The notes beneath the pieces were generated by a model that did no database searches, was not told where the DNA came from, and was given only the letters and a program-made list of their open reading frames with translations. 58,955 bases of DNA from NCBI GenBank assembly GCA_030834695.1, contig JAUQXK010000104.1, forward strand, positions 1 to 58,955. Direction: 5' to 3'. Positions 5,299-58,690 of the stretch are shown in pieces. Position 1 is the stretch's first letter. Each line of letters opens with the position of its first letter. The position numbers and the translations under genes are program-made. Source of the DNA: Desulfobacterales bacterium (GTDB lineage Bacteria > Desulfobacterota > Desulfobacteria > Desulfobacterales > SpSt-501).

Positions 5299-6213
5299 GT
5301 GAGAAAGCGCGCCGATCTATCCGCGGACGGGATCCGAGAGCTGATCCGTCGTTTCATCGCCGCTTCACCCCAGAACACCATGAAGAACGAGAACGAAGAT
5401 CCGGCCTGGGACGATGCGCTGGTCGGGTTCGCCTCGGGTGCGGACCCGATCTGGCAGCAGTACAAGGAATATGTCGGCCCCTTCCACTGGACCCCCTGGG
5501 AGGTCTTCTCCCAGCACTGTCCAGAGACACCCGCGAAGGCTGAAGAACTCACCGTGATTTCATGGGTCCTGCCCCAGCGCGAAACGGTCCGCCGGGCCAA
5601 CCGCCGGGCCAAGAAATATCCGGCCGAGGAATGGGCCCGGATCCGGGTCTACGGCGAGGAGTTCAACGCCGCGCTGCGCCGTCACGTGGCCGACCGCCTC
5701 AGGCAGGCCGGCCATGCCGCCATCGCTCCGATGCTGGTTCCCAACTGGACCGTCGTCAAATCGGCACGCTTCTCCTACGCCTCTTCCTGGTCCGAACGCC
5801 ATGCGGCCCATGCAGCCGGCCTGGGCACCTTCGGCCTTTGCGACGGGCTCATCACCGCAAAAGGCAAGGCCATGCGGGTGGGATCGGTGGTGGCCAGGAT
5901 ATCGATCAAACCCACCCTCCGGCCGTATTCCGATCACCGTGCCTATTGCCTTTATTTTGCCGATGGAACCTGCGGCAAGTGCATCGACCGCTGCCCGGCC
6001 CATGCCATTACCAAGAGCGGTCACGACAAGGAGAAATGTCGACGGCACCTGGTTCGCTCCCGGGAGTATGTGAAAAAGACCTATCGGTTCGAAGGTTATG
6101 GATGCGGGTTGTGCCAGGTGGGCGTGCCGTGCGAAGCAGGCATTCCGGTGAAAGCCGCCCGCGAAGCCCTGGAGCAGGGAAAGCTGCCGCCTCCGCCTCC
6201 GCCTCTGGCTTGA
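5299..6213 (+). CDS. QueG-like double 4Fe-4S cluster protein (epoxyqueuosine-reductase-related)
   Basis: A 304-residue protein. The GTG start at 5299 is set by an AGGAGG site six bases upstream. The middle carries the block SERHAAHAAGLGTFGLCDG and GKAMRVGSVVARI, typical of the epoxyqueuosine-reductase-related family common in anaerobes. It is followed by a ferredoxin-type CGKCIDRCP with a later Cys and a second cluster GCGLCQVGVPC. The second cluster differs from QueG proper (CGWDVCQ...CPWN type), so tRNA queuosine synthesis is doubtful. These paralogues are thought to be redox enzymes, some binding a corrinoid. The C-terminus is a short proline tract (PPPPPP). It stands alone between the divergent regulatory gap and the convergent tctA gene. 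Real function unknown. Confidence 0.8.
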   Translation: MRKRADLSADGIRELIRRFIAASPQNTMKNENEDPAWDDALVGFASGADPIWQQYKEYVGPFHWTPWEVFSQHCPETPAKAEELTVISWVLPQRETVRRANRRAKKYPAEEWARIRVYGEEFNAALRRHVADRLRQAGHAAIAPMLVPNWTVVKSARFSYASSWSERHAAHAAGLGTFGLCDGLITAKGKAMRVGSVVARISIKPTLRPYSDHRAYCLYFADGTCGKCIDRCPAHAITKSGHDKEKCRRHLVRSREYVKKTYRFEGYGCGLCQVGVPCEAGIPVKAAREALEQGKLPPPPPPLA

Positions 6214-57967: not shown

Positions 57968-58690
57968 ATGGTTTTAATGGGAAGCAAAGAAATGGAGCCA
58001 TCACGAAAAAGAGGAATTACTGATCTCGACGTTCGCCATTTTATTTATAGGACGTTTGTCGGAACATCCCGTCCGCCGACAACCCTCGAAACGGCGGATC
58101 ATTTCAAAATCACCATAGCCGCCGTGGAAAGCGCCTATGAACGGTTGGCGAGCGCCCATCAAATCGCGCTCGCTCCTGGATCTCATGCCATCTGGATGGC
58201 CCACCCGTTTTCAGGTCTACCAACGAACTATGTGACCGGAGTTGAAAATAAACGGTATTGGGGGAACTGAGTGTGGGATATCCTCGGTATCTCTGCCATA
58301 CTGGGTAAAGATGCCGTAGGGTACACCCCGTGCGGGTGTGGAGAGTGCCACGAGAAGCTCGACCTTGTGATTCGTTTAGGCCAGCCGATGAATTCAGATT
58401 GGCTTGTTCACTTCGTGGTTCCTGCAGTGCGGTTTTGGGAAAACATCGGCTATACCTGAGCAACAATTCTCGCCTTCAGGTCGAAGGATCATCTTGATGC
58501 GTGGTTATTACGACGGAATCTGGCAGCAGGATATGTGATGCCAATACAAACATGTTGGGAGCTTGCTCAGAGCTGGTATTCAGGCCGTCTTGATCATGAT
58601 TGGCAGCGCCCCGATCAAACAAAGATTCAACAGCTTTTTGACAAAATTGGGCTCAAGGGAACATTTTGGGATCTTGGCAGGACAGCCTGA
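57968..58690 (+). CDS. MerB-like (alkylmercury lyase family) protein with two UGA-encoded selenocysteines
   Basis: One frame of 240 residues if TGA at 58268 and 58457 is read as selenocysteine; it ends at TGA 58688. Residues 10-95 form the winged-helix-like N-terminus of MerB (DLDVRHFIYRTFVGTS, TTLETADHFKITIAAVESAY). The core runs ENKRYWGN-U-VWDILGISAILGKDA, TPCGCGECHEKL, VHFVVPAVRFWENIGYT-U-ATILAFRSKDHLDAW, QTCWELAQSWYSGRL. Counting from ATG 57968, U101, D104, C122 and U164 match C96, D99, C117 and C159 of plasmid R831b MerB with identical spacing. MerB splits the carbon-mercury bond by protonation through these residues. Internal ATGs at 57977 and 57992 are alternative starts. A pseudogene is the alternative, but stops falling exactly on both catalytic cysteines argue strongly against it. 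No merA, merR or merP is near. Confidence 0.9.
58268..58293 (+). promoter_or_regulatory. possible SECIS after the first UGA of the MerB-like gene
   Basis: UGA at 58268, then GGGAUA (58275-58280) pairing with UAUCUC (58288-58293) around a UCCUCGG loop. The loop has the two guanines but not in the typical first positions, so this is weaker than the second element. Confidence 0.4.
58457..58487 (+). promoter_or_regulatory. SECIS element after the second UGA of the MerB-like gene
   Basis: UGA at 58457-58459, then 13 bases, stem CCUUC (58473-58477), loop AGGUC, stem GAAGG (58483-58487). The GGU begins 19 bases after UGA. The loop is practically that of the E. coli fdhF SECIS, in which GGU begins about 18 bases after UGA. 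Confidence 0.8.

Follow-up and report, generated by a model that had tools for sequence, protein, structure and literature searches.

A MerB-like protein from a Desulfobacterales bacterium in which both metal-gripping cysteines are very probably replaced by selenocysteine

The organomercurial lyase MerB (PF03243; NF009710, NF033555; PDB 3f0o, 5c17) is the known demethylase of methylmercury, and its chemistry turns on Cys96, Cys159 and Asp99 (PMC4525700, PMC8261052). One MerB relative is already known to be a selenoprotein: SaoL (NF040728), the MerB-like organometallic lyase of the Sec-assisted organometallic (SAO) system, which has a single Sec in a CU motif (PMC13188914). Other bacterial proteins contain two Sec (e.g., MbdU NF045648, MduS, TsoB, and NF041115 with UxxU), but these are listed under other domains or motifs, and none is listed as a MerB-family protein (PMC13188914). 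SaoL is the proper reference point for the gene described here.

The DNA analysed (the window) is a stretch of 58,955 nucleotides from a Desulfobacterales bacterium (assembly GCA_030834695.1, contig JAUQXK010000104.1). An initial annotation had proposed that a frame near its end encodes a MerB-like protein with Sec at both catalytic cysteine positions, having counted 63 codons between two in-frame TGAs, with Asp at +3 and Cys at +21 from the first, and having noted a hairpin after the second. We confirmed each of these observations. The frame has 241 codons, two internal TGAs and a terminal TGA, and no TAA or TAG. Its features are as follows.

57968-58690 (+): coding sequence of the predicted di-Sec MerB-like protein, 240 aa including two Sec (other in-frame ATG starts at 57977 and 57992)
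58268-58270 (+): UGA, predicted Sec101, equivalent to MerB Cys96
58277-58279 (+): Asp104 codon, equivalent to MerB Asp99
58282-58319 (+): hairpin after the first UGA, probable SECIS 1
58331-58333 (+): Cys122 codon, equivalent to MerB Cys117
58457-58459 (+): UGA, predicted Sec164, equivalent to MerB Cys159
58473-58487 (+): hairpin CCUUC-AGGUC-GAAGG after the second UGA (+17 to +31 from its U), SECIS 2
58688-58690 (+): UGA used as the true stop

Gene calling with translation table 11 stops at 58270, giving a product of 100 aa. When read through, however, the protein matches PF03243 across both TGAs (E 7.7e-20; 71.6 bits against a cut-off of 27), which is more than chance. It is far below the NCBIfam cut-offs for the MerB equivalog (17.8 of 193 bits) and for SaoL (17 of 140 bits), and where SaoL has CU at the Cys159 position and Cys at 96, the window protein has TU and a second predicted Sec. 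A phmmer search with the single protein found no PDB relative, but a profile built from the window protein and 36 relatives found MerB2 (5c17) at E 3.7e-21 and MerB at about 1e-10. In these alignments the first UGA column falls on Cys96, Asp104 on Asp99 (Ser in MerB2 and in the D99S mutant), Cys122 on Cys117 and the second UGA column on Cys159. Both Sec/Cys columns, Trp103 and Asp104 are invariant in those 37 rows, but Cys122 is not. The AlphaFold model (pLDDT 93.6, pTM 0.88) has the MerB fold, with Z 17.5 to MerB2 (rmsd 3.5 over 187 residues) and 14.4 to MerB (3f0o). The MerB match covers model residues 16-209, leaving about 30 further C-terminal residues uncovered.

We then looked for relatives. 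A protein search of 96 related genomes found 8 with a match, all with exactly two in-frame TGAs, at 23-99% identity. PF03243 searches found matches in 55 of 389 genomes of the order and 50 of 395 of the phylum. In the order-wide search, 50 of 63 match rows carried two TGAs, 8 none, 4 one TGA and 1 one TAG; in the phylum-wide search, 36 of 60 carried two TGAs, 16 none, 7 one TGA and 1 one TAA (two genes are in both lists, and the rows with TAG or TAA are perhaps decayed copies). The two-TGA genes are not accompanied by scattered TAA or TAG in the matched stretch; this count rests on the two profile searches, because the frames we extracted were split at TAA and TAG. Aligning every match from the three searches gave 124 rows after removal of 4 duplicates. 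Writing the residues at the Cys96 and Cys159 positions in that order, 85 were U/U, 23 C/C, 6 C/U, and 10 were fragments or had a broken frame (5 -U, 1 C-, 1 -C, 1 --, 1 U-, and 1 UC; one further locus is split over two frames). A scan of named GTDB genomes added 80 loci: 62 C/U, 10 U/U and 8 C/C. The 10 U/U loci are MAGs named Deltaproteobacteria, Desulfobacterales, Desulfobacteraceae, Desulfobacula or Desulfuromonas, plus one Anaerolineae MAG whose clade-A gene (5427-6071 of locus L143) reflects either lateral transfer or a misbinned contig. The C/U loci form a large single-Sec family and include Gemmatimonadota, Acidobacteriota, Chloroflexota, Marinimicrobia and actinobacterial MAGs. The 8 C/C loci are all actinobacterial, among them named strains of Sinosporangium and Planobispora.

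Of the 114 intact rows plus these 80, 7 were removed as duplicates or too short, leaving 187 distinct relatives: 90 U/U (12 labelled clade A, with the window; 51 clade B; 27 clade C), 67 C/U and 30 C/C. Every relative with a letter at either position has U or C there, and no intact one has Sec at the Cys96 position alone, the single UC row being a broken frame. The residue at the Asp99 position is Asp in 12 of 12 clade A, 27 of 27 clade C, 66 of 67 C/U and 14 of 30 C/C genes, but Glu in 50 of 51 clade B (the other has Asp) and in 15 of 30 C/C, so the di-Sec trait does not always go with Asp. In a tree of 118 of the 187 sequences, 11 of the 12 clade A rows form one group with the window (support 100), which joins C/U rows (support 96), while U/U also appears apart, in clade B, in clade C and in one further locus (L022). 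The simplest reading is that Sec arose at the 159 position first and at the 96 position later, more than once. However, this is not proven, as the tree was made by a quick method and is unrooted, so gain and loss cannot be told apart on it.

If the UGAs are decoded as Sec, each should be followed by a SECIS hairpin. At the second site, the loop GGUC lies at exactly +23 to +26 from the UGA in 51 of 51 clade B, 26 of 27 clade C, 3 of 12 clade A and 52 of 67 C/U genes, and in 0 of 30 C/C genes at the homologous Cys codon. Seven other clade A genes have AGUUC in the same place, and the window has AGGUC. In 11 clade A sequences, 93.9% of cells of this hairpin pair, against 24-67% when slid and 86.2% in shuffles (0 of 500 as high); 3 of 6 pairs have changes on both sides (9 of 500 shuffles as high), although the number of pair types is not raised (461 of 500).

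At the first site, clade B mostly has GCUGGC around a GGUC loop, with every pair forming in 50 or 51 of 51 genes and GGUC in the loop region of 38 of 51, but the pairs hardly vary, so this helix says little by covariation. Clade A has a longer hairpin without a GGUC loop (columns 15-24 with 43-52), which showed when 54-63 nt were considered, the consensus within 45 nt being poor. In 11 clade A sequences it is 90.9% paired, against 41-50% when slid and 88.0% in shuffles (6 of 500), with 8 cells changed on both sides (6 of 500) and a covariation score reached by 1 of 500. However, the number of pairs with changes on both sides (3) was reached by 123 of 500 shuffles, and the hairpin was derived from the same sequences on which it was then counted. 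For columns 14-24, pairing is 92% in clade A and 22-52% in the other groups. In clade C, a proposed helix for this site did not fit in register, so that hairpin rests on single-sequence folds.

Folding energy against synonymous shuffles is lower at Sec codons (mean z: clade A sites 1 and 2, -1.59 and -1.00; clade B, -0.83 and -1.98; clade C, -0.91 and -0.32; C/U site 2, -0.90) than at Cys codons (C/U site 1, -0.20; C/C sites 1 and 2, -0.16 and -0.02), although clade C site 2 is weak. A permissive search for any stem of 5 or more pairs near the right distance does not discriminate, as such stems also occur at 21 of 30 C/C site 2 and 48 of 67 C/U site 1. The case for SECIS elements therefore rests on the fixed GGUC loop, the covariation at both clade A sites and the energies, not on the mere presence of a stem. 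Nothing in the window reached the Rfam gathering threshold.

The genome also has the decoding machinery: SelA (615 bits), two SelD each with one in-frame TGA (379 and 363 bits; contig C65, 4743-5663, and contig C5, 32516-33436), two SelB over cut-off (375 and 281 bits) and two tRNA-Sec genes over the Rfam gathering score, both also called by ARAGORN. A second SelB gene begins a few tens of bases after a second tRNA-Sec gene, besides the usual SelB and tRNA-Sec elsewhere (contig C11, 4805-6066; contig C140, 15126-15219; contig C54, 6883-8778). SelB passes its cut-off in 84 of 96 related genomes, and some relatives also list a second SelB over cut-off.

Two alternatives to Sec insertion, a decaying Cys/Cys merB pseudogene with two nonsense mutations and reassignment of UGA to Trp or another sense codon, were tested and rejected, and we consider both very unlikely. 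The pseudogene reading draws on the two in-frame stops and on the G+C of the gene, 0.50 in a window of 0.62 (a possible recent acquisition; the contig ends 265 bases after the gene, in a draft genome with about 5% contamination). However, Sec/Sec occurs in 90 of 187 distinct relatives, the hairpins are kept with compensatory changes, and nonsynonymous divergence is well below synonymous before, between and after the TGAs. For the window against one relative (L003), pN and pS are 0.137 and 0.540 between the TGAs and 0.205 and 0.685 after the second, while a closer pair of relatives (L141 and L142) gives dN and dS of 0.04 and 0.37, then 0.04 and 0.24. We found nothing in favour of reassignment: TGA ends 33 of 43 long mechanically called ORFs of the window, Trp is written TGG in the same gene, and homologues have Cys, not Trp, at both places. 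The terminal TGA is read as an ordinary stop, since full-length clade A proteins end within a few residues of each other, and of the 7 clade A genes whose end was listed, 3 end with TGA, 2 with TAA and 1 with TAG, and 1 runs off its contig.

The interpretation in the initial annotation, a di-Sec lyase-type enzyme, is thus supported, although lyase activity and substrate remain inference. Our preferred explanation, held with reasonable but not full confidence, is that the locus encodes a full-length protein of predicted MerB fold with two co-translationally inserted Sec, each UGA being decoded by SelB and tRNA-Sec as directed by its own downstream hairpin. That it is a selenoprotein is near certain. 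We infer that the two selenolates with Asp104 form a site that binds R-Hg+ (or another organometal cation), that Asp104 assists proton transfer to the leaving carbon as Asp99 does in MerB, and that the metal ion is handed to cellular thiols, sulfide or selenide rather than to MerA. Organometal lyase chemistry is somewhat more likely than not, and cleavage or capture of organomercury is the most likely role. The substrate is the least certain step, and mercury as the main substrate is only tentative.

In the window's genome, MerA and HgcA (mercury methylation) do not pass their cut-offs (351 of 454 and 69.6 of 275 bits). Over the order sample, MerA passes in 7 of 389 genomes, only 1 of which is among the 45 with a two-TGA MerB (4 candidates scored per genome). 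HgcA passes in 162 of 389 genomes: by our count from the best E-values, 28 of 45 two-TGA genomes and 134 of 344 others (Fisher p 0.0036, not corrected for kinship, genome size or completeness). We also sought a conserved neighbour in 51 loci (the window, 10 named loci and 40 regions; 2 of the 51 hold Cys/Cys genes, two are the same locus, and several flanks are cut by contig ends) by clustering ORFs of 90 aa or more within 8.5 kb. No shared partner gene was found, although neighbours were not named by profile, so single mer or sao genes beside individual loci are not excluded. Clusters seen in 3 or more loci were at varying distances and strands or were local synteny of near relatives, and one is a MerR-type regulator near 3 loci. 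Viral contigs gave no match to patterns from the single protein, which reach close relatives only and spell the Sec as Cys.

A di-Sec MerB-fold protein acting on another organometal(loid) (organotin, organolead, organoarsenic, or methyl-selenium/tellurium species) is unlikely but plausible: MerA passes its cut-off in only 1 of the 45 two-TGA genomes, there is no conserved neighbour, SaoL is called an organometallic lyase with no substrate given in the text we examined, and MerB-like 99Ser variants have been suggested to be wider organometalloid enzymes (PMC8261052, which also discusses MerB without MerA as an open question). On the other hand, the window protein keeps Asp99 and both ligand positions, and the association with HgcA, if real, points to mercury. 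We consider it less likely still that the protein is a non-lyase, i.e., a bis-selenolate metal binder, sensor or diselenide redox protein on the MerB scaffold. Two Sec at the ligand positions could form a diselenide, no partner gene is conserved, and model residues 16-80 match winged-helix DNA-binding proteins such as LexA (Z about 10), but solved MerB is matched over the same N-terminal part, and Asp104 is invariant in the 37 rows of the profile. Against our preferred explanation, 50 of 51 clade B di-Sec proteins have Glu, not Asp, at the Asp99 position, and Hg-Se bonds, which are probably very strong, could slow product release.

What distinguishes this protein from known MerB is that both metal-ligating Cys are predicted Sec, and from SaoL that there are two Sec rather than one. 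Two C/U loci are SaoL by cut-off (L026, 165 bits; L082, 175 bits), which places the Sec of SaoL at Cys159. In NCBIfam, none of 7 di-Sec proteins tested passes any cut-off, and 9 of 11 C/U proteins tested pass none. A review of May 2026 lists 119 selenoprotein families or subfamilies, and its only MerB-family entry is SaoL (PMC13188914), so we found no earlier di-Sec form, with the proviso that one could be mentioned in the two papers defining the SAO and Tso selenoproteins (PMC9879109, PMC12013261), which our survey did not cover. Other papers consulted were PMC9312934, PMC12013277, PMC2398784, PMC10418091 and PMC5029168 (no occurrence of the term sought in the last).

It is possible, though still doubtful, that these proteins are bis-selenolate organometal lyases, an enzyme family frequent in the sampled relatives of this genome in which both metal-ligating catalytic residues became Sec, the Cys159 position probably first. 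Such a family would give a MerA-independent route for breaking methylmercury under sulfidic conditions, with mercury leaving as sulfide or selenide. A family in which both mercury ligands are selenium, an element that probably has a very high affinity for mercury, allows a direct test of why selenium is used in metal chemistry and not only in redox. Table-11 gene calling cuts these proteins to about 100 residues, so surveys of mercury genes that need both Cys would miss them. In the order sample, 45 of the 55 genomes with a MerB-domain match carry a two-TGA gene, and if these cleave methylmercury, the set of possible demethylators is undercounted.
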